Below, piece by piece: positions 1,918 to 22,803 of a stretch of 23,963 nt of DNA (position 1 is the stretch's first letter; every line of letters starts with the position of its first letter). The position numbers and the translations under genes were made by a program. The notes under the pieces were generated by a model, which had not been told where the DNA came from, did not search any database, and worked only from the letters and a program-made list of their open reading frames with translations. The DNA is taken from contig JAQIWT010000307.1 in NCBI GenBank assembly GCA_034696485.1, positions 1 through 23,963 of the forward strand, read 5' to 3'. The stretch is from Isohypsibius dastychi (taxonomy: Eukaryota > Tardigrada > Eutardigrada > Parachela > Isohypsibiidae).

Positions 1918-3169
1918 ATGACTTCAAATGCCAAAATCATCTTCGTGCTTCTAGTTTTGGTAGCCATGTTAATCTTTCTCATTGCCAACCGACATGACTT
2001 TCCCAGATTGCGTGTGGATAATTGTCTGAACTTGTTCGAAGATGGTGAGACTCACGAAGATCATCGGCACAAAACATGGAAGCCCAAGGGATGCAGTTTA
2101 AAATGGTACTCGATATTCTCCGGGTATGTTTCGCTTGTGCAACACTTTGATTCAAGCAGTACTGTAGCTAATCTGTCGTAGAACTGCTGTCAAACACTGC
2201 TTCGAGAGACGGGCTACGCAATCGGCCAAAAATCAAACGAGCATTCTTTTGTTGGGAGATTCACGGGCTCGACAAATCCAGGTATTTTGAATCAACAAAA
2301 AAAAGTTTACCAATTGAAAATTGGAAAAATTAAGGGTTCTTCAAAAACAGCTCGCTATATCGTCGGAATTTTTAAAAATTTGCAAAGCAAACAAATTTTT
2401 CATTTTTTCATCCTGTTTACACCGCATTCAATACAGGGCTCATTCCACCAGTACTTTTCTCCTGATCACCACCCATACTCGTGCTTGACAGACCCGGAAA
2501 ACCCGTTCCCGCTCGTTAAAACGTGCAACTTCTCTCATGACTATTCCGAATACCGACTGGTCCTGGAGCGGTGGTGGTCACCAGTGGATCATGATTGGTC
2601 AGAGGCGAATTCACTGATCCGCAAGATATCAAGGAAAACAGACAATGAACTCCCGGATTTGATTTACATCAACACCGGAATCCACTTGGTTCGCTGGTGC
2701 TGGAAAGCGGAAATTAAACCACTTAATTGTGCAGCAGTTTACGAAAGGTGAGGGTTTTGTTAGTATGTGCTCAAAGCAGTTACTGTTCTAAGTGCCAACT
2801 TGAATTTGTTCGCGGAGGAATATCAAAACGTTGTTGAAGTATCTTGGGCCGCTCAGCCGTCGGACTGTTGTTGTTTGGGCACCCATGACGCTTGTACATG
2901 GAGAGATCATTCCCCGGCTTTCGGTGAACGGACTGAGAACGAATGAGATACTGCAAGCATTTAACACAGTGGCTCAAAGAGCACTGAATAATTCAAATAT
3001 CATGTGGTGGTCGTCCTATTTCCAGATTTTCCACTTCTTCAATGATACGTATGACGGAAAACATTTGGGACAGCGCTCCTTGTCTTACGTAACCCAGGTG
3101 CTGCTCAACCTACTGTGCAATCGATTTACTTCGACAAACTTGCAACCCTCCGACTATTGTTGTTCGTAA
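1918..3169 (+). CDS. PCE-1: CASD1-like PC-esterase, Golgi type II membrane protein
   Basis: Exons 1918-2123, 2182-2281, 2437-2747 and 2818-3169 give about 322 residues. A short tail and a membrane anchor (about residues 7-24, IIFVLLVLVAMLIFLIA) are followed by a luminal domain of the PC-esterase family, the catalytic domain of CASD1. That domain transfers or removes O-acetyl groups on sugars. Visible motifs are LLLGDSRARQ with nucleophile Ser at about 96, and DGKHL near the C-terminus with Asp at about 285 and His at about 288. IYINTGIHLVRWCW and VVWAPMTL lie between. The first ATG in the exon frame is 1867; I chose 1918 because it gives the usual short tail before the anchor. The multi-pass C-terminal domain of vertebrate CASD1 is absent. 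The intron 2282-2436 interrupts the codons right after the GDS motif and is missing from PCE-2 and PCE-3. PCE-1 is the most divergent copy and converges with FUT-1. Whether it is a transferase or an esterase cannot be read from sequence. Confidence 0.85.
2282..2436 (+). other. extra phase-0 intron unique to PCE-1
   Basis: The donor follows CAATCCAG and reads gtatttt; the acceptor is attcaatacag. Removing it joins RARQIQ to GSFHQYF, exactly the uninterrupted sequence of PCE-2 and PCE-3. It is AT-rich and holds a perfect 14-bp palindrome at 2367-2380 (aatttttaaaaatt). At 155 bp it is longer than the other introns of this family. Confidence 0.85.
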
Positions 3170-3233
3170 AGTACCGAATCATGACATGTCCAGATCGTTG
3201 CATGTTGTTTTATCTATTTTTTTCATCATCTTG

Positions 3234-3239
3234 ATTAAA
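3234..3239 (+). terminator. candidate poly(A) signal ATTAAA for PCE-1
   Basis: ATTAAA sits 65 bases after the PCE-1 stop codon, a normal distance for a compact animal gene. It is a common variant of AATAAA. The hexamer is also frequent by chance in AT-rich DNA. Confidence 0.4.
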
Positions 3240-3830
3240 TTCCCAATCAGTTGCGTTTGTGTGTGCCAAAGAAATATAATTCTTCGATGTGGTGTTTTGC
3301 AATGAGGGAGTTCACTTTCGATTCTGACTGCTTACTGTAAAATCTATATATTCGGTGGAACATGACCAAACAACCCAGAAACGTCAAGATAAGAGAGCGA
3401 ATTTTAAGTTTTAGTCCTCTGCTTGTGAGGAAGCGGAACCGGTCCCGCGAATAGTCGAATCCCGTGGGTCAAGTGTGGGGATTATTGGTGATTGAATTAG
3501 CTGACATCATGAACAAAGTCGTCAGAATATAGAATTTATATCATCATTGAGTATGCATAGCTCTATCGACAGATACATGTATATCTTTTGAAAGTAGGGC
3601 TGGCAAATTTCGATATCTTGCACTGTCCAAGAATGCTCTCGGGCTTCCTCAGTTTAAAAACATGTTTTCATAAGCTCTGCTGCCGAGATAATAATCAACT
3701 ACGGAGCTCGGGCCACAGCCACTCGGGTCACCGATGCAGCCCAGGGCGGTAGTGGTCAGAACCGAAGTGTGCACCTTAAGTATCGATGTGTTATGATCAT
3801 CATACCAGTAAAATCCAAGAGGGTTCAAGT

Positions 3831-3870
3831 CCTTTCAGCAGGCCACAACAACCTTTCAGCAGGCCACCAA
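3831..3870. repeat. two-copy tandem repeat, 21-bp period
   Basis: The 16-mer cctttcagcaggccac occurs at 3831-3846 and again at 3852-3867, in direct orientation with a 21-base period. It ends exactly where the hairpin at 3869 begins. Confidence 0.85.
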
Positions 3871-3911
3871 TTTACACACTACCCCCCAAACTGGGGGGTA
3901 GTGTGTAAATT
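3869..3911. repeat. perfect 20-bp inverted repeat with 3-base loop
   Basis: The left arm 3869-3888 (aatttacacactacccccca) is the exact reverse complement of the right arm 3892-3911, with loop aac. The stem contains a run of six G-C pairs. It lies about 110 bp beyond the FUT-1 stop and about 700 bp beyond the PCE-1 stop. It could be a small foldback element, a structured 3' UTR or a transcript barrier. Confidence 0.9.
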
Positions 3912-4021
3912 AGGTTTTTAGAAGAGTTTTCAGAAACCCAGGTTTTTTTTGTGGCATTTTTTCTGATTCAGCGCAGACATTCTGGTTATGGAATTTCGGA
4001 ACGAAGGAAACTTCGTCTTTA

Positions 4022-5230
4022 CTATGAGCCACCATACCAGGCAGGGTAAAAAAAATCATCTGGTTCCAATATCGCAGAGAGTTTGGAATTTCTACGGAAA
4101 GGTCTTTTGTAGTAAAACACAGTTGTTGCATCACTTAAATAAGCGCTCCACCATCCAAAGGTACCAACGGTCAGAATTAAACGGTCCATGAGAGTGAGAA
4201 CTGCCATATCCATCAGCCGCGAGTGGCCATCGAAGAATATGAAGTTTGAACCATTCATCAGGGTTCTACAGTAAGCCAGGTCGTTAGAAACCACAATGAA
4301 AATGGTAATTGCCGAAGACTTCTTCGTGAGATCAATCGTACGAAGCAGATACTCGTCGCTGGCCACGTAGTAACCCAGGTTTTGGTTCTTCTGGGTTAAG
4401 AGATCTCCACGTCGTACGTGGATGCCGACCAACTGGATGTTTTGTTCCGGGCAGGGATCCGTGTTTTTTAATTGACTGACCTCTTGGACGATAATTTTCG
4501 ACGCTTGCACGAGCAGATTCTTGTTGATGCCTAGCAAGGCTCGAATTTCGTCTCTCATAAAGTCAAAATATTTCCATGATTGCAGAAATTTCCACAAAAA
4601 CGTTGATTTGAACTTGAATGTCTTTCTGATATCGAATGCTCCAGGTGAAAACCGCTCTGTTCCGTTCTCGACAAACATCTTCAATCTGCCTGTGCTTCTT
4701 CTGTTGAAATGGCGCATCAGTGACAAGTCCTTCATCACGGGGATCAACCTTAACCCCTTTAATGCAACTGCATAATCTCTTCTCCTCGATCGAGTAACCG
4801 GTACCATGTCATTTTTACGAGATATTCCCATTAGAGAGGCTACCATGAAAAGGTAGTTGCCCAGGTTTTCCTTAAGTGCTGCTGAAACCAACACCGGCTC
4901 GTTCCTTGCAGTGTACCTACGGCTCTTGTTTCTGAGGTCCTCTGTAATGCGCTCAAGGTGCGACGACTGATTTTTGGAGCGGGTTAGTATGCGGTAATCC
5001 AGTACTTCTCTGACCCTGTTAGAGAATCCATATCTCGTGCAGTGTCGCATCCTGGCTACCTACCGATACAGAAGGTTAAGAGAATCGCAGACAATAGTCC
5101 TACTCAAGTTAAATCCCAATTACATCCCATGCATTACCTTCAGTCCACAATGGAAACACACAAATGTGGTCGCCAGAAGAAGAATTAAAATGTTCTTCGG
5201 AGCCTTTCTACGAAACATTCGGATCTCCAT
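4022..5230 (-). CDS. FUT-1: GT11 fucosyltransferase (alpha-1,2-fucosyltransferase family)
   Basis: Exon 1 is 5230-5138 and exon 2 is 5059-4022, joined across a 78-bp phase-0 intron, for about 376 residues. Exon 1 encodes a basic tail and an anchor (NILILLLATTFVCF) and is exactly 31 codons, as in FUT-2. The exon 2 join uses the acceptor ctgtatcggtag and adds Val-Ala-Arg before the first Met of the long frame. GT11 transfers fucose from GDP-fucose in the Golgi lumen. Motifs: NLGNYLFMVASL near residue 97; LVGIHVRRGD at about 242-250, the nucleotide-sugar motif; VVSNDLAYC; GTFGWWSAYL, matching GTFGIWAAYL of human FUT1/FUT2; and the closing FFYPAWYG. It is closest to FUT-3 (both have NGSNFIFFDG). 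It is divergent from PCE-2 with only 258 bp between the starts. Linkage and acceptor are not readable from sequence. Confidence 0.88.
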
Positions 5231-5488
5231 GGAAATTCGCGTCAATGGAGTGTTCAAGGAGGACAGAAACTGTGTGCCCTAAAGATTAGGTGCAGTCATC
5301 GGGATGATCACAGCGTATGACATCTAACCAGCTCCGCTCTCTGTTTTTCAAAGCTCCTGATGATTCTCAAAAAAACGCGGGTCAGTCACCTACGCTGCCG
5401 CTGGTCAATTCATAAGCGACGCAGCAGAACAATTTTACAGCGTAGAGGTAAACCGGCAGTGGTCCGCACTGAATTTGCACTGACTGTT
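5231..5488. promoter_or_regulatory. shared divergent promoter region of FUT-1 and PCE-2
   Basis: Only 258 bp separate the start codons of two genes read in opposite directions, so both promoters and 5' UTRs must share this space. I see no clear TATA box on either strand. A frame continues open upstream of the PCE-2 start to an ATG at 5360, but its Arg-rich translation has no counterpart in PCE-3. Confidence 0.5.
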
Positions 5489-6628
5489 ATGTCAAATCGG
5501 TTGCGAATGGCACCTCTCAATAAACTCGTGTTTCGCCTCCGATTTCTCATTTTACTAGTTGCTAGTGGAGTTTTGTCCTCATTGTTTCTGTTGATTCCCA
5601 CCAGCAGTTTACACAGCCGGCAGCAGGACTGTACAAATTTGTTTGAAGAAGGCGATCTCCATGAAGATAACAGGGACAAGACCTGGTCCCCTAAAGGATG
5701 TGGGCTCAGGTGGTACTCTGGCTTCGGGGAGTGAGTCTCGTTCAGACAATCATCCATTCTCTATTTCCACAATGTTTAATTCCACTACAGACCGACAACG
5801 AAACGATGCTTTGAAACTCTCGCAAAAAAGTCGGCAACAAACCGCACCGAGATCCTTGTGCTGGGTGATTCTAGAGCTCGGCAAATGCAAGGATCATTCC
5901 ATCAACTCTTTTCACCAGGACATTTCCCATATTCTTGCCTGACAGAGCCGGGAACTTCCAATGAGTTGATAAAACAATGCAACTACTCACGTTACTATCC
6001 AGATTTTAAAGTTTATGTAGAGAGATGGTTCACGCCAACTGCTGAAGATTGGTCCAGTGCCATTTCTTTGCTGAAACGCATATGCAATGAGCAACGGAAG
6101 ATGCCGGACCTCATCTACATCAACACAGGGATTCATTTGATTAAGTGGTGTTGGGAGATGGAGATCGAGCCAGGAGATTGTGCAGCGCTTTACGAAAGGT
6201 TAGTTTTCGATAGAAAATTCGTGTACTGTAGCATCCGCAGAGCTTACTGGGGTTTCATTTCGTTACTTTTTTGATTTGACAGCAACATAAACGCGCTACT
6301 AGAATATTTGGATCCGCTCAGCCGGCGAACAAAAGTTGTTTGGGCACCGATGACCTTGATGTATGGCGAAAACATGAAAAATTTGTATGAAAATGGGCAT
6401 CGCACCAACCAAATGTTGCTCGCCTTCAATGAAGCTGCAAAGAAAGCTCTTCGTGGCTCGAATGTTCAATGGTGGTCATCTTATCTGCAGATATTTCATT
6501 TCTACGGAGATACCATCGATGGAGTGCACCTGGGACACCGCTCGCTTGCTTACTCTACTCAAATTTTGCTGAATATGATGTGCAACGCTATTATATCTCC
6601 TGAGTCTGAGTTTTGTTGCTCCTCTTGA
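5489..6628 (+). CDS. PCE-2: CASD1-like PC-esterase, Golgi type II membrane protein
   Basis: Exons 5489-5730, 5791-6198 and 6283-6628 give about 331 residues. The start could instead be 5507, where MAPL aligns with the MCPL start of PCE-3. Anchor FLILLVASGVLSSLFLLIP is followed by a Cys-containing stem (QQDCTNLFEEGD). The catalytic domain begins with ILVLGDSRARQ (nucleophile Ser about 108) and ends with DGVHLGHRS (Asp about 296, His about 299). The pair CCSS closes the protein, as in PCE-3. Both introns are phase 2 and sit at the same codons as in PCE-1 and PCE-3. Exon 3 is 346 bp in both PCE-2 and PCE-3, and the two proteins are near-identical over long stretches, so this is a recent duplicate pair. 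The expected role is addition or removal of O-acetyl groups on a luminal glycan. It shares its promoter region with FUT-1 and converges with ST-1. Confidence 0.87.
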
Positions 6629-7234
6629 AAAATGTAAAAGCTCAATTGCCACATGCAAAACTCGTGAAAACGCCGTTGGAAGTTTGAGAAGAAAGAATTC
6701 AGGAACTGGATTTTAGTTGTTACAGATATTGTGAGAAATCTGAGTTGAACCATTACCTCGAGCAGTGATCTGAAATTTCATGAAAGACACGGCTTTCGTA
6801 GAGAATGTTAAATCACTTCAGTTGCATCCAGGCGTTGAAAGCGTGTATTCTTACGAAACAAACTGACCCCTGAAGGGATACCAAACGCAAAGGAGCTATT
6901 TTCATCCTAGCAGACCCTCAACCCCACTCACAACTTTTCGCATTCGGACTTTTGAGTCTCACGCATGTCAATTGATATTCGATAAAGATTCCCCTCTTTT
7001 CTATCACCAACGGTTCAAGATGAAACAGCTTCATGTGCTCTGCAAGTTTCAACTTCATTGGTTTGTTCGTTTATCTTCACGTACCAAAAACTTGTCATCG
7101 GACGTGACAGAGAAACAGGTTCACGTTCTTCTGAACGGTAAGACAGTTGTTCACATTCGAGAGGCTACCCAAATAGACTTGAAATTTTATTTCGGGTTTT
7201 CGATGAAAGAATTCCCTGTTAAACCGCTAAAAGT
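6629..7234. other. intergenic region between convergent PCE-2 and ST-1
   Basis: This is 3' flank of both genes. I see no repeats, RNA genes or standard AATAAA for PCE-2. An open frame on the plus strand (6972-7316) begins with TTG, not ATG, and runs antisense into the ST-1 end. I treat it as chance. Confidence 0.4.
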
Positions 7235-7239
7235 TTATT
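7234..7239 (-). terminator. AATAAA overlapping the ST-1 stop codon
   Basis: On the minus strand the sequence GAATAAAC contains both the TAA stop (7237-7235) and a canonical AATAAA. If used, it would leave a 3' UTR of only about 15-25 bases. Confidence 0.4.
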
Positions 7240-8495
7240 CAGTAACACAGTTCGGCACAGGGCAAGCAATTTCAGGTGCTAGATATATGTCTGGAACATC
7301 TGGGATACCAAACTGAAGAAACACTTCGTAAGACTGCTGAATAAGATCGTTTATTTGACCTTGTTCTTCCACTGTGAATATTCCGTGAAGCGGCTTTATG
7401 CGCTTAGGGCGTTTGTTACGTCCCATCGAATTCCTGACGGTACACTGCAGCCTTGCATCATCGACTCTCACAAACAAAAAATCCGAGATTTTGCGTAACT
7501 CCTCGACAAGGCTCTTCTTCAGGTTGTCGTAGAACACGACCAATACATCGTCAGCGACAGCAAGGGCCAGCTTTATTTGACCCAACCAAACACGACTTTC
7601 TCGTAACACGAATACATGCCATTCTAAAAATGATGGGGTCATGTGTATGGAACTCAACATTTCCGACATGAAGAAAATTGTGATACCCGGTGTTTCAAAA
7701 TCCTTGTCGTCAGCTATGCCGACATGTACCCCCGTCATCTGTCTGTTGTACTCGGCTATCAACATTTCGTATGGATTACGGACAAGCAGCAACATCTTGG
7801 ACGAATTGAAATGTATCATATAGTGCGTTTTGTAGACAATGGCTGTTTGTTGAGCGACATCGTCCATTTCACAGGGAAATTTGTCTAGCGCGGCTGCAAA
7901 AACCATTGAATATAATTTGAGGTTACCAAATCACTGGTAGTACAGTCAACTTAAATTTCTTCATATCGAGATTGCAAGTAAGCATTTCCCATATGAAACG
8001 CACATGTACTCTAAAGAGAATATTTATTACCTTTTGCATGATATACGCTTCCTGGAAAATATGTACAGTATGAAATATATAACAGAGCGAGTGATTGTAG
8101 TACAGTATGTACTCTACCTGTGCAAAGTCCCGTAAGGTGTTCAATCATCCAACGTAACCAAGTGTTCCCGCTTCCAGGAGAGCTCAGGAAGGCAGTTAAT
8201 GGCAGCGGAGACGCAGATCGCCTGCCAGCTGGATGACACTCAGCACCTGGAAAAGGAGATAACGTGGACTCAAGCAAGGTGACCGTTTTGGTCACGCTCT
8301 ACCTCGGGCGTCAACAAGCCAACCGGGCTCCACGGTCTCTTCACCCATATCTTCCTCGAGTTCGGTGAAATGCTGAGTACCCGCAATTGTTCGATTCTGA
8401 TCTATCATAAAAAGGCAAAAAATAGCAGTTAGAAGTAAAGGCACTGCTCTTCGTAGTGAGCGATGAGAATGGGTGCCGTAACGAACACAATCCAT
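7235..8495 (-). CDS. ST-1: WSCD-type carbohydrate sulfotransferase
   Basis: Five exons (8495-8303, 8246-8118, 8051-8031, 7893-7687, 7623-7235) give about 312 residues. Exon 1 has a short tail, an anchor (VPLLLTAIFCLFMI) and a stem ending PGWLVDARG. Exon 2 carries the 5'-phosphosulfate-binding loop, FLSSPGSGNTWLRWMIEHLTG. Exon 3 is a 21-base microexon. Exon 4 has YKTHY and the 3'-phosphate-binding segment LLVRNPYEMLIAEYNRQ. Exon 5 contains EWHVFV and VLVVFYDNLKK. These match the sulfotransferase domain of WSCD1/2, whose vertebrate members are sialate O-sulfotransferases; the two WSC domains are absent. The donor is PAPS in the Golgi lumen and the acceptor is unknown. Four of five exons match ST-2 in phase and near-match in size, and exon 4 is 207 bp in both. 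The last intron (7686-7624) is 63 bp and free of stops, so a naive translation reads through it and adds 21 false residues. Confidence 0.85.
7624..7686 (-). other. stop-free intron of length 3n in ST-1
   Basis: Donor CCGG|gtatca and acceptor catcatttttag|AATGG. Splicing converts the run between ETP and WHVFV into a single Glu, which aligns with the spliced TEEWRAFV of ST-2. The intron has no stop codon in the coding frame and its 63 bp keep the frame, so retention would give a longer protein with a 21-residue insertion. Confidence 0.8.
8031..8051 (-). other. 21-base microexon of ST-1
   Basis: It is flanked by acceptor atattttccag and donor gtaataaa. It supplies G-SVYHAK between the LCTG end of exon 2 and AALDKFPCEMD. 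ST-2 has the matching microexon at 15731-15708, 24 bases long, with the same phases. Confidence 0.8.
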
Positions 8496-8993
8496 TGAAG
8501 CTAAGCTCAACAAAACTCGAAAGAATATAACCTCGATATGTACGGTATTGCCCCGATCAGACCAAGGCTGTACAGATATCTCTCCAGCCTTGGGTCAAAC
8601 CGTCCGAAACTATTACTGTGGTGAGAAATTACCAGTGTAGCATCGCGCATGGTAGCCTTCTCAGCTGGATCTAGCTTCACTGATTGCGCCGCATTTTCGC
8701 ATGGTCTGATTGACGAACTCCAGTGATCCCGCGAAAAGTGGTAGTCCAACAATGATTATGAGCTCGCAGGGCCTCCGATGCAAACGTCTTACGAAAGTTT
8801 TCATCCCACATACAGCACGTCCATATGAGTTTCAAATGTTTGCCCGTTAAATAAACAGGACAGATAGAACACGGAACACCAAGTGGTACGGAGATTTTGG
8901 ATTCTGATTCAAGTATCTCTAACACAAGTACAGACTGTCACAAGGTAACTTTCTGGATTACACGATTCATGCATTTTGGCAAATTTGACACCT
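8496..8993. other. gap between ST-1 and the GT23 gene with an unassigned open frame
   Basis: On the minus strand a frame is open from 8937 to the stop at 8677. Its translation looks protein-like, with segments PLGVPCSICPVYLTG and LIWTCCMWDENFRKTFASEA and a cysteine-rich, aromatic composition. A CAG acceptor stands just ahead of it (ttgtgacag, ending at 8935). A second overlapping frame covers 8752-8507. Neither resembles the sulfotransferase or fucosyltransferase families and neither has an ATG in a sensible place. It could be a degraded exon or chance. Confidence 0.25.
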
Positions 8994-9033: not shown

Positions 9034-10575
9034 TCAATCTCCCTGGAAGATTAGGATGAACTCGCTATTCATTAACCTGATGTGACAACTACCCAGAACT
9101 TGAATTCCGAGGACTGCAAAGCAGTTGTAAGCGTTTTTTAATCCAAGATTGTCGCCAGAGAGCTGAAAGTCCACTGCTCGGTTGTCTAGCGCCCATTCAA
9201 CGTCTAAACTATGGACCAAATGCTGTTCCATATCACCTTTCAAGAGGGCCACCAATCGGCAAATGTTTGAAGAATGAGTACAAACAACACGATCTGCCAT
9301 CGACATCAAAGTTAGGTTAATAATCAGTTCAGCAGTAGAAATATCCAGTATTCGGTCCTGTCTTCTTTGGAACTCTTGTGCTCGTGCTTCTTCTTTGGAA
9401 GCTGAATATGGCTTCAGATGACTTTGCACTGAACTGACCGCGTCGGTAGATGTGATAATCTTGAAGCTACCGCGAGCGAGGTCAGTGAACTCGGAAATGG
9501 CCTCGGCGTCGTCAGACATGAGCAGGATATTGCGAGGACACATACTGTACAGTCGATAACAGATTTTTTCAACACGTTCAAAATACGTCGACGTCTCGAT
9601 TGGTTTCATTTCTAGCTTGGTCAGCTTGTCACCACGGCGAATATGAACTGCAAAGAATCGCCCGTGGGAATCGATCACTCTCCGCCAAACTCGAAAAACA
9701 ATTTTCTTGAATTCTGGCTTTGGACTCCATATCGCTTGGAGCATCAATGACTTCCGACGAAAAATGGTGTCAATTCCATCCCGTCTAACAACATCGAGTA
9801 TGACTTCTCGCATCTGCTGCCATGTGTCATCCTCTTCGTGGACACCAAAACGTATTACAGCGGCAGAACTTCCTTCCAACATCACAGATTCCTGACCGAC
9901 ACTGTAACTCAGAGTACAATTGGGTAGCCCATTACCATCAGGCAACGCCTCAGTGTTCTTCAAGTTAAAATCCTCAAAAAACCGACAGGAAAATTCTGAG
10001 CCAATATCTTCAAAAAACAAGTGTAGTGGGGCATAGGACCATTCTCCGAATAGCATGCAGTATCTACGTTGGATGTTCTTTTCGAGTGCAATCACGAACG
10101 TGTTGAGCGCGTTGTTGACAACTGCGCCAAATCCAGTCCTGGATTCCAACATGGCGCAGATGGTGTTTGTTGTCCAGCGGCTAGCACAACCTTCCAGGTA
10201 TTCACGGATTCCTTCGATTTTCTGTAAGAAAAAGGAGTCGGATTCGAATATCGCATTGATGGGGGACTACCTCTACCTTGTTTCTGTTGAAAAAACTGTT
10301 GAACTGTTGTTTAAGGGTGTTCCCATCCAGCTCCATACTCTTCCGCATTCTCTCGTTCATCGATATCGAAGATCCTCCAAAAGAGTCTGCTCTGTTTAGG
10401 TGAAAAATCATTGTTCAAGCAAGTAGAGTTTGAAGATCTTACCGTGAGAATCATGGTAGTCCCTGACTGTTGAAGACAAGTCCCAACGTTCCGGACCAAC
10501 AATTCTTACAAATACAGATGTGCAGACTAAGATGACAAAGCTGACTAAAGTCCCCAATCGAAATTTGTGTTTCAT
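9034..10575 (-). CDS. GT23 (FUT8-like) fucosyltransferase, divergent
   Basis: Exons 10575-10443, 10386-10277 and 10221-9034. Exon 1 encodes an anchor (LGTLVSFVILVCTSVFV). A hydrophilic stem follows, then IREYLEGC and NTIC, which align with the cysteine-bearing region of FUT8 before the GDP-fucose fold, and GFGAVVNNAL. The catalytic core has FFAVHIRRGDK (His at about 274), the HxRRxDK motif of GT23; NILLMSDDAEAISEF; and MSMADRVVCTHSSNICRLVALL, matching LSQADFLVCTFSSQVCRVA of human FUT8. FUT8 adds alpha-1,6-fucose to the N-glycan core, but this protein is about 100 residues shorter, lacks a clear SH3 domain and is diverged, so its acceptor may differ. The 3' end is uncertain. The open frame stops at 9034-9036, but a hidden final intron is possible, ending at 8994 with a tail reading MHWRKEY, reminiscent of FUT8 NHWDGYS. 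The exon 2 acceptor is also ambiguous (10386 or 10389). Confidence 0.72.
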
Positions 10576-11677
10576 CTTTGATTGACTCTTTCTCAAATAT
10601 CAACACTGAACAGCCGGTTGAGACCTGGAAAGAATCGTGCATTAAACCAACACAAGAACTGATCAGTCCACCCAGCGCAACGCCGCCTAGCGCACCAAAA
10701 TTCAACAGAATATCCAATGAAACCAGTTGTTTAGAGAATTCAGCTGTCGCCAGCATTCTCATGTCTGGTCATATTCTTGGAAAACGCTTATTTCTCACCC
10801 AGTTCTGCAATTACTTTTTAGCTTCCTGGGTATTCAATTGAGTTAACTTCAGTTAAATCTTTCGACATGTCGATAGTTGAACTCGGTTGGATTCTGGTTG
10901 AATTAATTCAGTTGTGCGCACAACTGTATAAGCACAAACATATAACGTCACAACTCAGATTCTGAAAAAGCTCAAGACGGAGAACTATTGCATTCGATTA
11001 GTCTTGAGGTTTAAGACACAACGTAGGAAATTGGCAAACGCAGCCTATAATATCTTTGTGGAATATAATGCACTGAAATAAATCGTAAGACACTCATACT
11101 TGTCTTTCTCATCTCGTCTCAGCCCCCCCCCCCCGGGTTGTTGATTCTTTGAAAATTCTCACAGCGAGACACATGGACCACCGATCCCTAATGCAAACCT
11201 AACTTACTATCCTATACAGGGCCCATGTGGGGTAACTAATTATTGCCCCCCACTCCCCTTGGTGGTGGACAAAAAACATATTCTCAGTGCCCGCTTAGTT
11301 CAATGGTTAACTGTGTCTTCGTTGTGAACGATCTTGTTCGAGCTGAAGAGCGTTGACCTCGTCAACAGCGCTGTTTTTTTCTACTTACCCCACTCGCATC
11401 AAGCTTGTCTTCAACGTGCATGTTTTCATTCATTTTCATCAGTGAACGGTGACAAGGCTGCTACTGGCAGCAGTCATTGCAGTTGCCAAGACTGATGTCG
11501 AACTCAGTAGCTGTATTACAATACATTCACTTATAGACTTAAGGGGTTGATCTCACCACCGAATTGTCGTGCGTGGGCGTCAACATATCCGAGCTCAAAA
11601 TTGAGCTATTGACCAGAAAATTGGATGTTAACGTTTACAATAAGTGAGATTTCATGTTGTTACGAGGAGCAGCCGCC
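10576..11677. promoter_or_regulatory. divergent upstream region of the GT23 gene and FUT-2
   Basis: About 1.1 kb between two divergent start codons. It holds the palindrome cluster at 10863-10926, a 12-base C run at 11123-11134 and a tRNA-like A-box sequence near 11296 that does not fold into a tRNA. Short ORFs overlap here on both strands, but none has family features. No TATA box is convincing. Confidence 0.4.
10863..10926. repeat. cluster of three perfect palindromes
   Basis: Within 64 bp lie cgacatgtcg (10863-10872), tgaattaattca (10899-10910) and the 18-bp cagttgtgcgcacaactg (10909-10926). The last two overlap by two bases. The CAnnTG cores resemble binding sites of dimeric factors such as bHLH proteins, but no function is shown. 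The position is 300-350 bp upstream of the GT23 start and 750 bp upstream of FUT-2. Confidence 0.75.
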
Positions 11678-12840
11678 ATGATACACTATGGTCAGCCCAG
11701 TCTACCTCACAGACGGTTGCTCCTTTTAGTCGTTGCTTTGGCATTTCCTGTGATGTACATGGTTTTCAAGGTAATGCGTGGTGACTTCTGGTTATTTTTG
11801 AAATTATGGGATTGCTTATGATCTAGATGACAATGAACCACCAATCACAGTGCCTGCGACGGGTGGAAAGTAGATTGAGTGAAGCAATAGATAGCCGGCT
11901 ATCGCGAGATAAATTTTATTTTCAAAAAATCAAAACGGAATTGAATGCATTCAGGTCACGACATCATTCTAGACGGGAGCCTGTCTTTGTGTCTGCTGCT
12001 TCAAAGGAAAATTTGGGGAACTACCTTTTTATGATTGCCTCGCTGGTTGGAATCAGCAAGAAAAACGACCGAATACCTGTCATCCGCTGGCCGAGAAAGG
12101 ACTACATAACAGCGATCACGGGACTGAGTCTGATTCCGGTGATCAGAAATAACGCTGCCTTTCGGGACCGGCTCGAGGCGATGAACAAGTTCCGCGAGAA
12201 CGGCACTGAAAAGTTTAGTCCCGAAGCCTTCCACATTGCCAAGAATTATGGAACCAACTCCGTCTTCATATTTTATTACCTGCAGTCCTGGAAATATTTT
12301 GACTACATGCGCAACGAAATTCGTGCTCTGCTCGCGTTCAACGAAGCAATATTTCGAAAAGCATCGGCAGTGATAGTAAATGAAATCAAGAAACAAGTCA
12401 CCATGAGGAGTTTAGGAAGTGAGCCTCAGCTAGTTGGAGTTCACGTTCGTCGCGGTGACATCTTGTTTCCCAAGTACCAATCACTCGGTTACCAAACAGC
12501 CAGTGATGATTACCTCCTTCGAACTGTGAGCCTTGTCGAGGGGTATGCACGCTCCACCATTTTTGTCGTGGTCTCCAACGATCTACCATATTGCAAGAAC
12601 TTGTTCAACGGAACGAACTTCGTTTTTCTGGATGGTCATTCAAGGATGATGGATATGGCTGTATTGACTCTGATGGACAGGCTCATTCTAACCGTCGGAA
12701 CATTCGGCTGGTGGAGTGCGTATTTGAGTGATGCGGAAACCATTTTCCATTTCAAACGACCGTTTCGTCAGAATACCAAGCTCTCCGCAATACTGAATTC
12801 AGATGATTTTTTTTATCCTGACTGGTACGGAAGTGCATAG
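11678..12840 (+). CDS. FUT-2: GT11 fucosyltransferase (alpha-1,2-fucosyltransferase family)
   Basis: Exon 1 (11678-11770, 31 codons) and exon 2 (11827-12840) are joined by a 56-bp phase-0 intron, for about 368 residues. The chosen ATG has the context gccgccatg; an in-frame ATG at 11654 would add eight residues. The anchor is LLLLVVALAFPVMYMVF. The catalytic domain begins with EPVFVSAASKENLGNYLFM and has LVGVHVRRGD at about 234-242, VVSNDLPYC, LTVGTFGWWSAYL and the end FFYPDWYGSA. It is expected to use GDP-fucose in the Golgi lumen. Among the three GT11 copies it is the outlier: it has NGTNFVFLDG and HVRRGDILFPKYQ, where FUT-1 and FUT-3 share NGSNFIFFDG and HVRRGDLLTxKNQ. It is divergent from the GT23 gene and converges with ST-2. 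An ATTAAA at 12994-12999 is the nearest plausible poly(A) signal. Confidence 0.88.
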
Positions 12841-14140: not shown

Positions 14141-14142
14141 TT
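14137..14142 (-). terminator. AATAAA overlapping the ST-2 stop codon
   Basis: On the minus strand TTGTAATAAAAC contains the stop TAA (14143-14141) and an AATAAA that begins with its last two bases. ST-1 shows the same overlap at its own stop. Confidence 0.4.
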
Positions 14143-16185
14143 ACAATGTATCATACATTTTCCACGGTTGCCGGTAAAATTCAGGTATGTTGGGAACACC
14201 GTGTGACTTGAAGAGCACAAATGCCTGCTTTATGCGGGTGTTCATATTTTCTATTTCTTTAAAAGTAAAAATTTTATTCGCTGATTTTGATCTTTTAGGG
14301 CGTTTGTACTGGCCGACGCGTGATTTATTGATGGTGCACTGGATTCGAGCGTCATCAACTCTCACTTGTAGAAATCCGGCGATCCGATACAGTTCCTGTG
14401 TCAAGTTGCGCTTGAGGTTCTCGTAGAATACAACCAGGATATCTTCTGCTATTTCGAAAGCCTTCTTTACTTGTGAAATCCAAACCAAAGTCCCCATTTT
14501 TACAAAAGCCCTCCATTCTGTAAGAAACAGATACTGTTAGACGGTGGTGTCAGCATGAGCGAAAGGCTGAGTGGTCTGTTTGAGATAACACGCTTTAGAA
14601 CCAGTGCAAGTTTGAAGAAGTTCAACGTGGCGAGCTGCGGCGCAGTTACGCGCAGTACAAATTTTTTCGCTCGCCTGGTAACCGTCAGCACCTACAGAAA
14701 GTGTTGTACGTCTCCGCCAAAAAGAAGTCCTCACTTCGCCCTATCGAATGACTGAGTGGGCAGGCCCAAGTAAGGACTTCTTTTTGGCGGAGACGTATTG
14801 GATTTTTCGCTATCTGCACCCTGACGTTCCGAAGTAACCGAAACCGCCGCCACGGACGGAATTAGCTTTCTCGAGCATAGAACAAGATTTTGCTCTGCAC
14901 TTTGCGGTTCCACTTTCCGAATCTCCAGCGATAGCTCACAGCAGTAACGCGTAATCAGTAAAAGAAGCCCCCCCCCCCCACTCACGTCAGATTTTATAAC
15001 GGCAGTTTGCGATCACGTGAAAACGTGTGAGATTGGCGTCGGAGAAAAACGTCGGGAGAAAGACATAGTAAACTCCAGTTCACAGAATGAACCTACCCAC
15101 GCTGACCTATGTGTAAGTGGTAGAGAAACCACACGAAATATGATGACCGATAAGAATGAGATTTGATTACCAAGTTATCTCTCACAATAAGTTCATAAGT
15201 AGAGTTTCAAGCTATACGGCCTGTTGTGCACAGTTTTGCTGTACAGTCAGCTACGCGGAAGTGAGCGCTGCGAATTGCGAACAAGAATTTCGTTCCCGGT
15301 GAGCGAATCATGAACGTACCCGAGTAGGGGAACCATAGGCCGTAACACGGCATTGCTCATGACATGTGTGAAGCTGTGAATGCTGGACACTGAACACATA
15401 CTTTCAAAATCTCCCGAATTTCTCCCGTATTTCCCAGTCTTAAGTTACCTTCGGTATAGAAGGCTCGATCGTCGGCTAGGCCAGTATGATTATCGTTCGT
15501 CTTCTGTCTGTTGAATTCAGCAATCATCGCAGCATAAGGATTTCGGATCAGGAACAACATCTTCCGCGAAGTGAGGTGTTCGAAATAGTGGCTTTTATAA
15601 ACGATAGCCGAACTTGAATTAATAGAATCCATTTCGCAAAGAAAGTCGCTCGCAACTGTGAACATAAAACTGAACAGCACATCATAAGGTCAAAACAAAT
15701 GTCTCACCAAGTTTGTCCTGGTAGTTGCTGCCTTAGAAAGTCCAAAAATGAAAATAGTCAAACATCGAGACGCCAACTACTCACCCGTACAGATCCCTGT
15801 CATGTGCTCTATCATCCACCTCGTCCAAGTGTTGCCGCTACCTGCGGGGCTGAGTAGTACGACGAACGGTAGCGGAACCTGATTGTTTGTATACCGCTTT
15901 CCCTGAGCGTTACATTCCGGGCCTGTCGGCGCGAGAGTTAAAAAAGCAAGAAACATCAAAAGGTGACCGGTTCGCTGTTGAGAACTAACCTCTCGCGTCA
16001 ACCAACCAAATGGAAACAGATTTTGTAGCGTTCAAGTAATCAACATACTCTTGGCTAAACGATGGCGTTGTTTCGGAAATATCTCTGGTACTTACAAGAA
16101 ATAAACAGCAGAACCCCACTAAGAGCAAAACATCAGCAGGACAACACAATCTGTTTCTGTTGGAAAACCAACGCTTGAAACGCAT
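14141..16185 (-). CDS. ST-2: WSCD-type carbohydrate sulfotransferase
   Basis: Five exons (16185-15990, 15922-15785, 15731-15708, 15655-15449, 14517-14141) give about 313 residues. Exon 1 starts MRFKRWFSNRN and has an anchor (VLLLVGFCCLFLV) and a stem ending IWLVDARG. Exon 2 carries the PAPS-binding loop LLSPAGSGNTWTRWMIEHMTG. A 24-base microexon follows. Exon 4 has YKSHY and LFLIRNPYAAMIAEFNRQ, the 3'-phosphate-binding segment. Exon 5 opens with EWRAFV and has ILVVFYENLKR. No WSC domains are present. All introns are phase 1, as in ST-1. The last intron (15448-14518) is 931 bp against 63 bp in ST-1 and contains a foldback element and a 12-base C run. The predicted reaction is transfer of sulfate from PAPS to a sugar hydroxyl in the Golgi; the acceptor is unknown. 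The gene is followed upstream by PCE-3 on the same strand and converges with FUT-2. Confidence 0.85.
14707..14797. repeat. 91-bp foldback element in the ST-2 intron
   Basis: The left arm 14707-14736 and right arm 14768-14797 are inverted copies of 30 bp with one mismatch, separated by 31 bp. The termini read tacgtctccgcc and ggcggagacgta. Both flanks show TTG at the boundary, a possible 3-bp target duplication. It resembles a small foldback MITE, but no known family or transposase match can be claimed. Confidence 0.85.
15708..15731 (-). other. 24-base microexon of ST-2
   Basis: Acceptor gactttctaag, donor gtgagac. It encodes G-SNYQDKL between GICTG and VASDFLCEMD. It matches the ST-1 microexon in place and phase and is one codon longer. 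Confidence 0.78.
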
Positions 16186-17325: not shown

Positions 17326-18434
17326 TCACGAGGAGCAACATAGCTCAGAGTTCGGAAATAAAACTGCGTTGCACATTCTATTGAGCAACACCTGAGTGGA
17401 ATAAGCAAGTGAGCGGTGTCCCAAGTGGACTCCATCGGTAGTATCCCCAAAGAAATGAAATATCTGCAAATATGATGACCACCATTGAACATTTGAGCCG
17501 ACCAGAGCTTTCTTCGCCGCTTCATTGAAAGCCCTCAGCACTTGGTTAGTGCGGTATCCGTTTTCGAACAAACGGTGTATCGATTCTCCATATATCAGTG
17601 TCATCGGTGCCCAGATGACCGTCGTTCGCCTGCTCAGGGGATCCAGATACTTCAACAATGCCCGTATTTTGCTGGCAGATCAAAGCACGAATTAGATCCA
17701 AAAAACTGAAAACAGACAAATACAGTACTGGCTTTATGGCGAACTTACCTAGTGTAAAGCGCGGCGCATTCTGCTGGCTCGATTTCCATCTCCCAACACC
17801 AAGGGATCAAATGGATTCCTGTGTTGATGTAAATCAGGTCCGGCACGTGATGGTACTGATCATGTAGTATATTCTTGATGAAAGAAATGGCGCTCGACCA
17901 GTCCTCAGCAGTCGGCGTCCACCACCTCTCCACATGAACTTTGAAATCTGGATAATATTGGGAGAAATTACAGCCTTTTATCAACAACTTGGAAGTTCCT
18001 GGCTCCGTCAGACACGAGTATGGGAAATGTCCCGGTGAAAAGAGCTGGTGAAATGATCCTTGCATTTGCCGAGCTCTCGAATCACCGAGCACTAGAATCT
18101 CAGTGCGGTTTCTCGGTGATTTTTTTGCGAGATTTTCGAAGCATCGTCTCGTTGTTGATCTATGGTCAAGGCACATGATTGCATGACAGACAGATGAATT
18201 TTTACATCAGACTCACTCCCCGAATCCAGAGTACCATCTGAGCCCACATTGTTTGGGTGACCAGGTCTTGTCCCTGTTATCTTCATGGAAATCGCCTTCT
18301 TCAAACAGGTTTGTACAGTCCTGTTGTCGAGTTACATAATCACGGGTGGGAATCAAGACAAACAGCATGGACACCAGTCCAGATGCAACTAACAAAACAA
18401 GAAACCTGGAACGATGGTTTTTTAAAGGGCACAT
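17326..18434 (-). CDS. PCE-3: CASD1-like PC-esterase, Golgi type II membrane protein
   Basis: Exons 18434-18217, 18159-17749 and 17671-17326 give about 324 residues. The frame upstream of the ATG at 18434 contains only a TTG and then a stop, so the MCPL start is firm. Anchor FLVLLVASGLVSMLFVLIP is followed by the same stem as PCE-2 (RQQDCTNLFEEGD). ILVLGDSRARQ supplies the nucleophile (Ser about 100), and DGVHLGHRS the Asp (about 289) and His (about 292). It ends CCSS. Both introns (57 and 77 bp) are phase 2 at the positions used in PCE-1 and PCE-2. It is nearly identical to PCE-2 over long stretches, for example HEDNRDKTWSPK and GSFHQLFSPGHFPYSCLTEP, which points to recent duplication or gene conversion. 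It is divergent from FUT-3, in the same head-to-head relation as PCE-2 with FUT-1, but with 2.5 kb between starts. Confidence 0.88.
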
Positions 18435-20977
18435 TTGCAACTCAAATCGAAGAAATGGCAACTTTCACTGCTTCGCAAACGCGGTTTAAGATATTGATCA
18501 AGTAGCTGCATGCCAATCACGACATTTAGTTGCTTTCAGGCTTGTGGACGATGAGGTCAACTGCTCACAGAATGCCTCAAGAAGAGATCGTTAGCGCTCA
18601 CTTTCTAGTTCGTTACTTAGTAGTTGAATGTCATCATGTGAACAGTTACCCAAGAAATGACCAGTAAAAGAGAACGGCTTCAGGTGCCAAAACCTTTCAA
18701 ACTCTCGGATTTATCAGTTTTTGAAACAAAACACTAATTAAAATACGTTGGCCATGAAAGTTTGGATACCTCTTTTGTTATTAGAGCTCTGTAGTAGTAT
18801 ATTTGTTGCCGCTAGGGTTGGCAGTATAGAGCATTCATTGTTGGCCGTGCTCGTGAGCAGAAGCTCTTGAAGTTCATATTTTGTCGTCATGGTCGTCCTG
18901 GAGATCATGGCCTTTATCATAGATCAAGGAATCCTCAAGGACGCCAAAATTCTTGACTACCCGGTGCCCAAAACAAACTATGAGTGAAATAAATAATAAG
19001 TGAAGCATACGGCTGCTCTTAGAAAAACCATATTCAGCCGAAAAATGCAGGTGAATGACGCATTCATAGCTACTACTTTCAGAATATTGATCAAATACAC
19101 ATATCAAAGCCATAGGCAAGGTTACTGCCCATAGTAGGTATGTATCTATGATTACCTGATCCATGGTTTATATGGTATACTTACGGCCACTGGTCTTATG
19201 CGTGTTATCTGGACAGACTTCGATACGAGTAGGTTTTCGATCAGTATACACAAAACTGTTTTAGCACCGGATGGGTAAGAACCTCCCTCGCGATCATATC
19301 CCTGTTCCCATTGTGTAATGAAGTAACGCATAAAATGATGATATCGGAGTCAACAGAGCGTCTTGCTGCGACCCTAAACCGACAGAAAATCAAGTTGATT
19401 TGGTCGCACAACGTTCTGTGCGACTACTGTGGCAACAACAGGAATGCTCGCAACATTTCAAGCAGTATGTAGCATTTGAACACCGAAATACTTTCAAACC
19501 GGAATCAACGTTCCAGTGGATCTTTGTAGTCACGGGAATGTGTGTGATTTTGAGAGCGAGAAGTCCGAGCTTCGAGTATTGTCGCCCGAGAGATGGATTC
19601 CAAGCTTAACATTCATACGATGATGTGCTTCATAAAACTCAAACATTCAAGTTTTACCTGCCTTTTATGGCAGCATCAAATTTAGTGATTGATTCGCGTT
19701 AAAAAACTTTACAATTGTATGTGGTTTATCCAGTTTTGTCGATCAGGAGCTTCCAAAATCAATGACAAAATAGAGGGTTCCTATAGCTAACAATGTTGTG
19801 GTGGCGGCTAAAGTGAAACGGTGTCTTTTGTGACGGCTGCAATTTCAATCGAATGTTCAACAGGTAGCACCGGTATTTCAGCGTAGTTCGATTCCCATGG
19901 CCAGAGGGTAAGTAGACGCGAAAACATGTTTTTCTTACTGAACGCTGTTATTTATCAATCAAGTCTTTTGCGCTTCTAGCCATTCGGCTGGTCAAGCTCA
20001 TACGTACCATTTGCCATTTGGCAGCTGGCTACTTGAGCCAAATGTGAAATTGTGAAATCCGTTTTCGGCTGTGTCTGACCTTTGAAGCTGCACAGCGCTG
20101 TCGTGATAGGTCAAGCGGTGAAGTAACTAAACGCTGCGGTTAGATGGCTGCAAACCGCTATGTACATTCTCATATATACCCGACATATCAGCTTACAAGT
20201 TTTTTCCGCGTGATGTTCGGAAAAAAATTCCCTACCATGAGAACCTATGGTCCAGCGCGTTAAAGCTTGGTAGTTGTAGATAAAACGTTGCTAAATTAAT
20301 TCATGTCTTTTCGGGGTGACAAAGCTCTTGTTTGAACTTTTGTGAATTTTCCCGAAGTTCGCAAGCACATGAATTACGATACTCACTATGACAGTTTACC
20401 ATGGAGAATATATGATCATTAAGAAAATCACGTCACGACGTTTAGCCAAGCAATGCTTGTTTCAGTTACAGATTTGTACCCTTAAACAAGGTGGTGCGTT
20501 CTTGCAGAATGACTTTCGGCTTGACAACATAACTTCTTCCAGAATCCGGTTCGCTACATTCTTGATTACATTCCGACTGTATCTCAAATGCTGGTTCGAT
20601 TGGCACACACGACACACAGGAGCGGATGATGAACGTCCTTCTCAATTTCGATGGTGTCACATAAATTTCTCCTGAGCCATTGATTCACTATCGACATATC
20701 TCATTTGGGCCACTCGGCCCCTACACCACAAACATCTTAAAATCTTCGTTATCTGGCATGGATACTAACGGTCTCCTTGAACCGAGACAAACCAACCCCA
20801 TACAGTCTGAAATTGGTAACTCAAATCGTTTACCCGAACGGATTCAACACGAACAAGCTCCACCCTGTCGGTCGGGGTCTCCTCTACCAACAGAAAGCTT
20901 CATTCCATCGATTGCGTTTCATGTTCACCTCCGCAATCATAACCTTCTCGCAACAATTAATCCAGATTTTTAATGAC
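18435..20977. promoter_or_regulatory. long divergent intergenic region between PCE-3 and FUT-3
   Basis: At 2.5 kb this is the largest gap inside the cluster. It contains one weak candidate peptide gene (18874-19008, separate entry) and a short ATG ORF at 20388-20675 without family features. The equivalent FUT-1/PCE-2 gap is only 258 bp, so DNA was inserted here or lost there. I find no transposase, tRNA or clear terminal repeats that would explain the extra length. Confidence 0.45.
18874..19008 (-). CDS. possible small secreted acidic peptide (weak)
   Basis: An ATG at 19008 opens a 44-residue frame that begins like a signal peptide (MLHLLFISLIVCFG) and ends in an acidic, His-containing tail (KGHDLQDDHDDKI) before TGA. 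The frame is also open upstream to an ATG at 19164. The Asp/His-rich tail is reminiscent of the open frame at the left edge (1-87), but the similarity is compositional only. No homologue is recognised and a chance ORF is quite possible. Confidence 0.2.
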   Translation of the reverse strand: MLHLLFISLIVCFGHRVVKNFGVLEDSLIYDKGHDLQDDHDDKI

Positions 20978-22146
20978 ATGATTCTCACAAGGCGCCTTGT
21001 TTTTGGAGCGACTACAACAGCTCTGTTTTTGTACTTTGCATTTAAGGTAACGTTGCAGACTAAGCGGCTACTTATTTCAGCATCATGTTACTTTCTCATT
21101 AGATGCTGGACTACCAGAGCCTGATGAGCTTCAATACTTTATCTGTGAGGGTGATGAGCAAGTTGCAGAAGCGCATTCAGGCACGAACACGGATCAACAC
21201 GGATAATGTCGGATTTATCGCCAGTCAACTTAAGAACCAAACAGTTTGGTACAATGTCAAGCACAATTTCCACAAAAAGCCAATACTCATCTCGGCAGCA
21301 ACGGAAGAAAATATCGGCAATTACTTGTTCATGATAGCATCTTTGATCGGCGTTGCTCGAAAAAACAATATGGTGCCCGTGCTTCGAAAGCGACGGAGAG
21401 ATTATTCAGTTGCGATTAAAGGTCTCGGCTCGATACCTGTGATGAGGAGGGCACCTATTATACCCTGGAATGGAAAGCCGAATCTGAAAGTTTTCAAAGA
21501 GAAAGGTACCGAGAAGTTCGCACCAGAAGCTTTCCAAATTCGGAGAAGGTTCGGGAATGCAACGGTATTCTTAAGATACTTCATGCAGTCGTGGAAATAT
21601 TTCGATTTCATGAGAGGGGAGATTCGAGCGTTGCTGGGCATAGACGTGGAACGTCTGACTCGAGCAGCAAAAATCATCACGAGCCGTATCAGTAAACAAG
21701 GCATCGTCAGTTGGTCCCGTGAGAAAGATGTCCAGTTGGTTGGAATACATGTTCGTCGTGGTGACTTGTTGACAACAAAGAACCAGCGTTTGGGCTATAA
21801 AGTGGCCAGTGATCAGTATATACTGCGTACCATTGAGGTGGTGGAAGGCTTGTCCCCAACCACTGTATTTATAGTGGTTTCGAATGATATCACATACTGC
21901 AAAACCTTGATGAATGGCTCCAACTTTATTTTCTTCGACGGCTACTCACGGCTTATGGACTTGGCAGTCCTGACCCTAATGGACCGATTGATCTTAACAG
22001 TTGGGACTTTCGGATGGTGGAGCGCTTATCTCAGCGATGCCAATACCGTGTTCCACTACAAAAGGCCGTTCCAACAACACACTAAGCTCTCCGCAATTTT
22101 GGACGTGGATGACTTTTTTTACCCAACTTGGTATGGAAGCGCTTGA
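20978..22146 (+). CDS. FUT-3: GT11 fucosyltransferase (alpha-1,2-fucosyltransferase family)
   Basis: Exon 1 (20978-21046, 23 codons) and exon 2 (21103-22146) are joined by a 56-bp phase-0 intron, for about 370 residues. The tail is short (MILTRR) and the anchor is LVFGATTTALFLYFAF. The frame is open further upstream to 20777, but the chosen ATG puts the anchor where the paralogues have it. Motifs: ENIGNYLFMIASL; LVGIHVRRGD at about 236-244; VVSNDITYC; LTVGTFGWWSAYL; and FFYPTWYGSA at the end. GDP-fucose is the expected donor and the Golgi lumen the site. It is closest to FUT-1. It is divergent from PCE-3 and converges with the orphan sulfotransferase exon. AATAAA at 22311-22316 is a good candidate poly(A) signal. 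Confidence 0.88.
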
Positions 22147-22652
22147 GAACTTACGAATTTGTGTTGTTTTCCGACAAGTGTTTATCATGCTCATGGTCAA
22201 AATGGTTAAGCGACCGGGATTCGATGCCAACTTTAGTGATCTCAGCGGTGCTTTTTGGAACGTAACTTTTCATCTTGCTCCCGCTGGTCTGTGGTTTTGG
22301 CAGAGAGACGAATAAATCTCTTTGACAGCCCATCGCACTCGCAGTATCAGGTGTGCTGTTCAGTTGCATACGTGTTATGTTTCGTAGTGGTATGAAACCG
22401 ATGGCGCGATGAAGTACTGCCGGCCAGCCTCGCTTTAACCTGATTGTCGAATACCGGTCAGAATTAGTTTTGTAGATAATCACTGACAAAATGAGTGATA
22501 CCTTACGAAAAACGGGATGAGCCCGTTAGTACAATCGATATTCAAAGAAATGACGCCTTTTGACGTATCGTTCCTTTCGAGCTTGTGTGCTAGGCGTTTA
22601 TTAGACAATAGAGGTAGAACAGTATTAGGTCAATGTATCAGTCTCGCTTAAC
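22147..22652. other. 3' flank of FUT-3; no exons 2-5 of the adjacent sulfotransferase relic
   Basis: I searched the minus strand here for the PAPS-loop exon (SPGSGNTW) and the RNPY exon expected to follow the relic first exon, and found neither. AATAAA at 22311 on the plus strand serves FUT-3. A minus-strand AATAAA lies at 22602-22597. Confidence 0.5.
22311..22316 (+). terminator. candidate poly(A) signal AATAAA for FUT-3
   Basis: Canonical AATAAA 165 bases after the FUT-3 stop codon, on the coding strand, with no competing gene between. Confidence 0.5.
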
Positions 22653-22803
22653 CCAGAGCTTTGACAAGCCAACCGGGACTTGTGATGTCCATGTCCCCTT
22701 TTACCTTAGATTTTGTGAGGGATTCGTTTGACGTGTCTGCTCGATGTCTATCCATCAAAAGTAGAGAACCAGCTACACGGAAGAAGAGTCTTCCTGCACG
22801 CAG
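22653..22803 (-). pseudogene. orphan first exon of a third WSCD-type sulfotransferase (relic)
   Basis: On the minus strand the frame from 22803 to 22653 ends with SPGWLVKALG followed by a splice donor (CTGG|gttaag). ST-1 ends its first exon with EPGWLVDARG in the same phase. From LLLMDRHR to PGWLV the relic aligns with LFMIDQNR to PGWLV of ST-1 without gaps, with 29 residues between the shared MD/ID and the end of the motif. Fourteen bases (cccggttggcttgt) are identical in the two genes. The frame is closed by TAA at 22806-22804, before a start codon and full anchor can be formed. No second exon lies between here and FUT-3. It is therefore most likely a decayed copy, and it stands in the same convergent position next to FUT-3 that ST-2 has next to FUT-2. 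Confidence 0.68.

Follow-up and report, generated by a model that had tools for sequence, protein, structure and literature searches.

Glycan genes are usually scattered in animal genomes. Multi-gene biosynthetic bundles do exist in animals, as described for the oroidin bundle of sponges, which serves small molecules (PMC12833800). The stretch analysed here, hereafter the window, is the entire contig JAQIWT010000307.1 (C307; 23,963 bp) of the tardigrade Isohypsibius dastychi, and it carries nine intact genes of putative fucosyltransferases, O-acetyltransferases and sulfotransferases. Like the oroidin bundle, the C307 cluster brings together, in one region of an animal genome, genes for non-homologous enzymes that supposedly share a pathway. 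In contrast to that bundle (PMC12833800), its predicted products would modify glycans in the Golgi instead of serving small-molecule metabolism, and it is tightly packed and block-duplicated; its linkage is kept in two blocks of the same assembly. A literature search by titles and abstract starts found no comparable animal glycan gene cluster.

The reading preferred here, to which we give about even credence, is that the genes on C307 form a cluster of several families whose enzymes modify glycans in the Golgi lumen, that the core of this cluster came together before it was duplicated en bloc and has persisted since, and that the enzymes act on one glycan class. The core unit appears to be PCE - ST-A - GT23 - ST-B, to which one copy adds a GT11 gene lying between GT23 and ST-B, and would have been expanded in the C307 copy.

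Gene content and a second block

Gene models, in which exons were joined via homology and GT-AG sites, give nine complete spliced genes without internal stops between 1918 and 22146 (Table 1). Their order is PCE1, GT11_1, PCE2, ST-A, GT23, GT11_2, ST-B, PCE3 and GT11_3, where PCE denotes the CASD1-like PC-esterases and ST the sulfotransferases. All introns are GT-AG, and 17 of the 20 measure 52-84 bp. The first-pass annotation had listed three GT11 genes, one GT23 gene, three CASD1-like genes and two WSCD-type genes plus a relic, and all of these are there. The relic is the first exon of an ST-A-like gene, with about 50 open codons, a stop just upstream, no ATG before the hydrophobic stretch and no further exons seen; ST-B was considered as the relic and rejected, as all five of its exons are open. 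The description of the cluster as having almost no other genes between its members holds as far as Pfam shows: none of 10 chosen open reading frames (ORFs; 85-105 aa) outside the models has a match at E 0.01, and two more, 522-944 and 10454-10768, have none at E 1.

The order and orientation of PCE2 (+), ST-A (-), GT23 (-) and ST-B (-) are repeated on a second contig, C651 (16,744 bp). The own genome, an assembly of 1648 contigs totalling 30.4 Mb, was searched at E 0.001 with a single exon or domain for each family and two for PCE. Relatives of the four families lie on 19 contigs; several families occur together on C307 and C651, and a single one on each of the other 17. GT11 is the sole searched family on C115, C127, C732, C1203 and C255, GT23 on C528, C852, C1571, C441, C790, C382 and C181, and PCE on C1016, C36, C133, C480 and C1104, while the sulfotransferase query matched just C307 and C651. 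The assembly is judged to be partial, because the search gave one RNA polymerase second-subunit gene against an expected three, and because Cpn60/CCT matches on seven contigs represent six loci (C1006 and C1270 holding the same gene) where about nine are expected.

The two blocks were rejected as alleles, with protein identities of 43-67% between counterparts. The two sulfotransferases are more alike between blocks than across types, the ST-A/ST-B cross pairs reaching 43.0-46.5% protein identity, and their tree splits A from B in 100% of 200 bootstrap trees (printed branch support with a distant root, 64/28). ST-A and ST-B were thus already distinct at the block doubling, because this split pairs each of them with its C651 counterpart. 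The four block PCEs form one clade against those of C36, C1016 and C133 (96/99), and the two block GT23 genes group with that of C528 (94/98). On these comparisons, a four-gene, three-family block is judged to predate the split of the C307 and C651 copies, both of which have been kept. Such a block is more than a tandem expansion at one place. As its refutation the first-pass annotation had named scattered families, which would make the cluster a coincidence of tandem expansions; this fails inside the own genome, where C651 repeats the four genes in order and orientation.

Ratios of nonsynonymous to synonymous divergence (dN/dS) could be read at dS <1.5 for four of 23 pairs, PCE2/PCE3 (0.14), PCE2/C651 (0.23), PCE3/C651 (0.16) and ST-A/C651 (0.18). 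GT11_1 and the C115 copy c115b give 0.14 at dS 3.2, and the remaining 18 pairs are saturated. Under random placement of collapsed loci, the post hoc chance of at least one GT11, GT23 and PCE locus falling on a sulfotransferase contig of C307's length is 1.8e-7, and that of GT23 and PCE for C651, given the sulfotransferase, is 1.9e-5; the two figures must not be multiplied, because both contigs stem from one duplication event.

Table 1. Features of C307 and of the second block on C651 (aa, length of the predicted protein; bits, Pfam score)
Feature	Position	Exons	Strand	Description
PCE1	1918..3169	1918-2123, 2182-2281, 2437-2747, 2818-3169	+	Stand-alone CASD1-luminal-domain-like PC-esterase/O-acetyltransferase, 322 aa; 54.5-57.4% aa identity to PCE2, PCE3 and C651 copy
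GT11_1	4022..5230	5138-5230, 4022-5059	-	GT11 (alpha-1,2-fucosyltransferase family), 376 aa; PF01531 91.1 bits
PCE2	5489..6628	5489-5730, 5791-6198, 6283-6628	+	CASD1-luminal-domain-like, 331 aa; 63.7% aa identity to C651 copy
ST-A	7235..8495	8303-8495, 8118-8246, 8031-8051 (micro-exon), 7687-7893, 7235-7623	-	WSCD-type sulfotransferase, 312 aa; PF00685 26.1 bits; 67.3% identity to C651 ST-A
GT23	9034..10575	10443-10575, 10277-10386, 9034-10221	-	GT23 (FUT8 family) fucosyltransferase-like, 476 aa; PF19745 27.6 bits; 42.6% identity to C651 GT23
GT11_2	11678..12840	11678-11770, 11827-12840	+	GT11, 368 aa; PF01531 86.3 bits
ST-B	14141..16185	15990-16185, 15785-15922, 15708-15731 (micro-exon), 15449-15655, 14141-14517	-	WSCD-type sulfotransferase, 313 aa; PF00685 33.9 bits; 53.2% identity to C651 ST-B
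PCE3	17326..18434	18217-18434, 17749-18159, 17326-17671	-	CASD1-luminal-domain-like, 324 aa
GT11_3	20978..22146	20978-21046, 21103-22146	+	GT11, 370 aa; PF01531 80.0 bits
Relic	~22622-22825		-	First exon of ST-A-like gene; 68.4% identity over 209 bp to C651:6088-6294
Non-coding stretch	23816-23963		.	70.9% over 148 bp to C651:6978-7124, upstream of C651 ST-A gene
C651 PCE	1825-2933		+	No internal stops
C651 ST-A	6311-5027		-	No internal stops
C651 GT23	13579-12144		-	No internal stops
C651 ST-B	15354-14053		-	No internal stops

The predicted enzymes and their known relatives

Near its N-terminus, each of the nine C307 models has a hydrophobic stretch, with best 19-residue means ranging from 1.59 to 3.08; this feature fits type II Golgi enzymes and makes a Golgi location plausible. 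The name CASD1-like given to the PCE genes in the first-pass annotation is borne out for the luminal catalytic domain and not for the C-terminal multi-transmembrane (multi-TM) region. A profile of seven own-genome PCE copies scores 82.1 bits against the luminal domain of CASD1, a reference sequence entered by hand, and the best of 2000 shuffles scores 13.3. The hand-entered sequence counts as checked because its numbering of S94, D270 and H273 agrees with that in PMC4510713. The PCE proteins align over residues 47 to 303 of this reference sequence and keep the GDS nucleophile, the DxxH motif (the triad residues align) and the N-terminal hydrophobic stretch; the GDS serine and the D/H columns are invariant in the four block copies. 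However, the PCE genes are without the 12-TM C-terminal region of CASD1 (797 aa at full length). The alignment ends at a CC pair, and the four block models end at this pair or one or two residues past it, just before the start of CASD1's multi-TM region; past residue 60 their best 19-residue hydropathy is 0.79-1.05. No Pfam model exceeds its cut-off in the PCE genes, and PCE2 and PCE3 have no match even at E 10. These negatives, including that for PF13839, say little, because the CASD1 reference itself scores just 12.9 bits with PF13839 (cut-off 27). NXPE4_C is matched by the CASD1 reference at 33.9 bits and not by the PCE proteins, and the PCE profile found no meaningful sequence match in the PDB.

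Further CASD1-luminal-domain-like genes lie at C36:3.3-4.5 kb, C1016:5.35-6.5 kb and C133:13.7-14.7 kb and on C480 and C1104, each time as the sole searched family, and those of C36, C1016 and C133 have GDSRxRQL motifs and the CC pair at the end. The PCE genes outside the blocks point to a wider lineage-specific family.

For the sulfotransferases, the label WSCD-type likewise stands for the sulfotransferase domain and falls for the WSC domains, to which ST-A and ST-B show no Pfam match at E 10. The ST profile scores 121.4 bits against a WSCD1 domain that was also entered by hand, 29.6 bits against a SULT (PDB 5x2b) and 6.8 bits against the best of 2000 shuffles; when searched against the PDB it matched ordinary sulfotransferases (best, 1.1e-6). 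Both spliced models exceed the Sulfotransfer_1 (PF00685) cut-off of 22 bits. ST-A and ST-B share with WSCD1/WSCD2 this domain and a single N-terminal hydrophobic stretch, but are about 312 aa long against 571-572 aa for WSCD, the orthologs of which are reported in deuterostomes (PMC9304399). The motif P-x-x-G-x-T-W that binds the 5'-phosphosulfate (5'-PSB) of 3'-phosphoadenosine 5'-phosphosulfate (PAPS), with its WSCD positions taken from PMC9304399, is present in three of the four copies as PGSGNTW (ST-A, C651 ST-A and C651 ST-B) and is common to other sulfotransferases. Both C307 genes contain a micro-exon, of 21 bp in ST-A and 24 bp in ST-B. The 931-bp last intron of ST-B contains a 36-nt inverted repeat at 14707-14797 (92% complementary, 19-nt spacer) that resembles a miniature inverted-repeat transposable element.

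Fucosyltransferases of the GT11 and GT23 families use GDP-fucose as donor. The three C307 GT11 ORFs share the Pfam family of FUT1/FUT2 (PF01531, Glyco_transf_11), at 80.0-91.1 bits against a cut-off of 23.9, and contain HVRRGD, which we take to be the GT11 motif. GT11_2 has 209 protein relatives; among the best 120 of these, those with names are led by tardigrades (Paramacrobiotus, Hypsibius and Ramazzottius; 13 rows, 29-37% identity), with molluscs next. Two of the Ramazzottius GT11 proteins, RvY_02872 and RvY_02895, sit on contigs with an identical listed length of 9,333,084 bases. In a tree of 35 of these 120 relatives and six own-genome copies, a branch with 100/97 support has on its tardigrade side 6/6 own rows, 12/13 tardigrade rows and 10/11 taxon-unlabelled rows, and on its other side 11/11 lophotrochozoan rows, one Hypsibius row and one taxon-unlabelled row. 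The tree thus points to a tardigrade as the source. Different from the FUT1/FUT2 family, five lineage-specific GT11 copies form a clade on a long stem (100/100, length 1.41), with 32-37% identity to the three best-scoring named proteins among the same best 120.

The GT23 catalytic region matches the FUT8 profile and structures. With FUT8_N_cat (PF19745), the C307 protein scores exactly the cut-off of 27.6 bits and the C651 protein 34.5 bits. A single C307 exon gave no match to PDB sequences at E 0.001, and a profile of the four best own-genome copies, out of nine contig-level loci, gave eight matches at E <=1, all eight to FUT8 (best, 5.2e-6). The own GT23 proteins are nevertheless divergent from FUT8, at 437-476 aa, and match the model partly (positions 362-476 or 331-491 of 499). 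A predicted structure of the main exon alone was discarded at a mean pLDDT (a per-residue confidence score) of 32.3.

Linkage and the acceptor glycan

A bolder version of the preferred reading is offered tentatively and is rather unlikely as it stands. It holds that the cluster is a selected, heritable glycan-decoration cassette, in which genes of unrelated families are kept, duplicated and diversified as a unit like bacterial polysaccharide loci, and in which the stripped-down catalytic domains of CASD1 and WSCD are re-used on a non-sialylated chain. A neutral history has a substantial, though less than even, chance of being correct. Three or four unrelated Golgi-enzyme genes may have adjoined by chance and then undergone tandem and segmental duplication, in which case they would act on different acceptors and their linkage would be functionless. 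Duplication is indeed frequent here, as seen in the inverted pair PCE2/PCE3 (79.6% identical), the relic sulfotransferase exon and the ends of C115 and C307, which are 91-95% alike; the second block is a duplicate rather than an independent assembly, and the genes have no upstream motif in common. However, the blocks hold 13 genes, nine of C307 and four of C651, and every one is open despite synonymous sites near or at saturation; all four members are kept in order in both copies, and no second family occurs on the 17 other contigs with relatives.

Several observations weigh against a kept multi-family cluster. C307 and C651 represent one duplication event and not two independent co-locations. 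No trace of GT11 is found on C651, so GT11 is not a proven member of the ancestral unit. A pairing of the two block GT23 genes with each other appears in 36% of bootstrap trees, which does not separate them from the C528 gene. Co-regulation finds no support in the upstream sequences of 15 genes (300 bp each), where none of the 6-, 7- and 8-mers exceeds dinucleotide shuffles. The hydrophobic stretches of ST-A and GT11_3 are barely above the best window elsewhere in the protein (1.77 vs 1.60 and 1.59 vs 1.44), and C307 ST-B reads AGSGNTW, with Ala in place of the Pro of the WSCD 5'-PSB motif. Cross-species support is lacking for PCE and ST, because searches of a protein collection with the PCE alignment and the 231-aa ST-A exon gave no relatives at E 0.001 (0 of 4029 and 0 of 592 candidates, respectively). 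Both searches were confined to proteins 0.55-1.75 times as long as the query, which put full-length CASD1 out of range and, with the 231-aa exon as query, WSCD as well.

If the enzymes of the cluster work together, the most likely mechanism is successive action of type II Golgi membrane enzymes on a single class of glycans, either secreted or at the surface. Fucose would be added by GT11 and GT23, and O-acetylation and O-sulfation would follow, the CASD1-type luminal enzymes forming an acetyl-serine intermediate from luminal acetyl-CoA to acetylate the chain and the WSCD-type enzymes sulfating it from PAPS. The isolated luminal domain of CASD1 is described as an acetyltransferase that passes acetyl from acetyl-CoA via acetyl-serine to the acceptor (PMC4510713), and luminal acetyl-CoA is reported to be supplied by SLC33A1, while the multi-TM C-terminal region is a second catalytic site (PMC13043746). 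The luminal domain can therefore function on its own, in the absence of the multi-TM half.

The first-pass annotation had named sialic acid as a possible acceptor, and this finds no support. It is improbable that the cluster makes O-acetylated, O-sulfated sialic acid with the fucosyltransferases as accessories, even though the closest known domains are those of CASD1 and WSCD. Human CASD1 acetylates CMP-sialic acid (PMC4510713), and mouse WSCD1/2 are reported to move sulfate from PAPS onto sialoglycans, with no product from CMP-sialic acid (PMC9304399). Neither the sialyltransferase family GT29 (PF00777) nor Cas1_AcylT (PF07779) has a match in the assembly, a weak negative in a partial assembly and with no positive control, and no sialic-acid gene was recognised within the cluster. 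Tardigrade N-glycans are described as carrying core alpha-1,6 and terminal alpha-1,3 fucose, and the paper contains 0 occurrences of sialic, sialyltransferase, sulfat and O-acetyl, although sulfate and O-acetyl were possibly invisible to it (PMC12167791). A fucosylated, non-sialylated chain, e.g., on mucin, cuticle or egg-coat glycoproteins, is judged the likelier acceptor.

A multi-family cluster that outlasts duplication would allow animal glycan pathways to be predicted from genomic neighbourhood, as in bacteria, and would point to the catalytic domains of CASD1 and WSCD being put to a new use away from sialic acid chemistry. Whether animal glycan pathways are ever selected for linkage becomes a directly testable question in tardigrades.

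Contig ends and further copies

The paralogy of the two blocks presumes a single species in the assembly. That C651 comes from a co-assembled second species, making the blocks orthologs, is very improbable: one CCT gene does occur twice, on C1006 and C1270, with 75-90% nucleotide identity by piece and 88-90% in the longest, but these copies share 99% protein identity over a 119-residue exon, as expected of haplotypes and not of species with Golgi enzymes 33-57% apart. Moreover, each of the other five Cpn60/CCT loci occurs once, and one RNA polymerase second-subunit gene was found. Such an origin, if true, would strengthen the case, as the gene order would then be conserved between species. C1006 and C1270 are probably two haplotypes that remained separate in the assembly because the animal is highly heterozygous, and the five other Cpn60/CCT loci differ from their gene and from each other.

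The right end of C307, with the relic exon and the non-coding match (Table 1), suggests part of another block copy. At the left end, positions 1-1296 match the end of C115 (34090-29626, reverse) with 91-95% identity and insertions on both sides (314 bp in C307 and 3.4 kb in C115), and both contigs stop at the same base. C115 carries two more GT11 genes, sister to GT11_1 and GT11_3, and may be a neighbour of C307 or another copy. It was rejected as a third block, as tblastn at E 0.001 over the stretch 8415-34090 gave no PCE, ST or GT23 trace.

A short tandem repeat of VHQLP-like units lies between ST-A and GT23 at C651:8.2-8.9 kb. The ORF 522-944, within the left-end stretch of C307, encodes a short Lys/Arg-rich protein, and C115:25404-25787 (-) is likewise Lys/Arg-rich, judged by eye. 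A serpin-like C-terminal ORF, also recognised by eye, is located at C115:26829-27302, near the two C115 GT11 genes.

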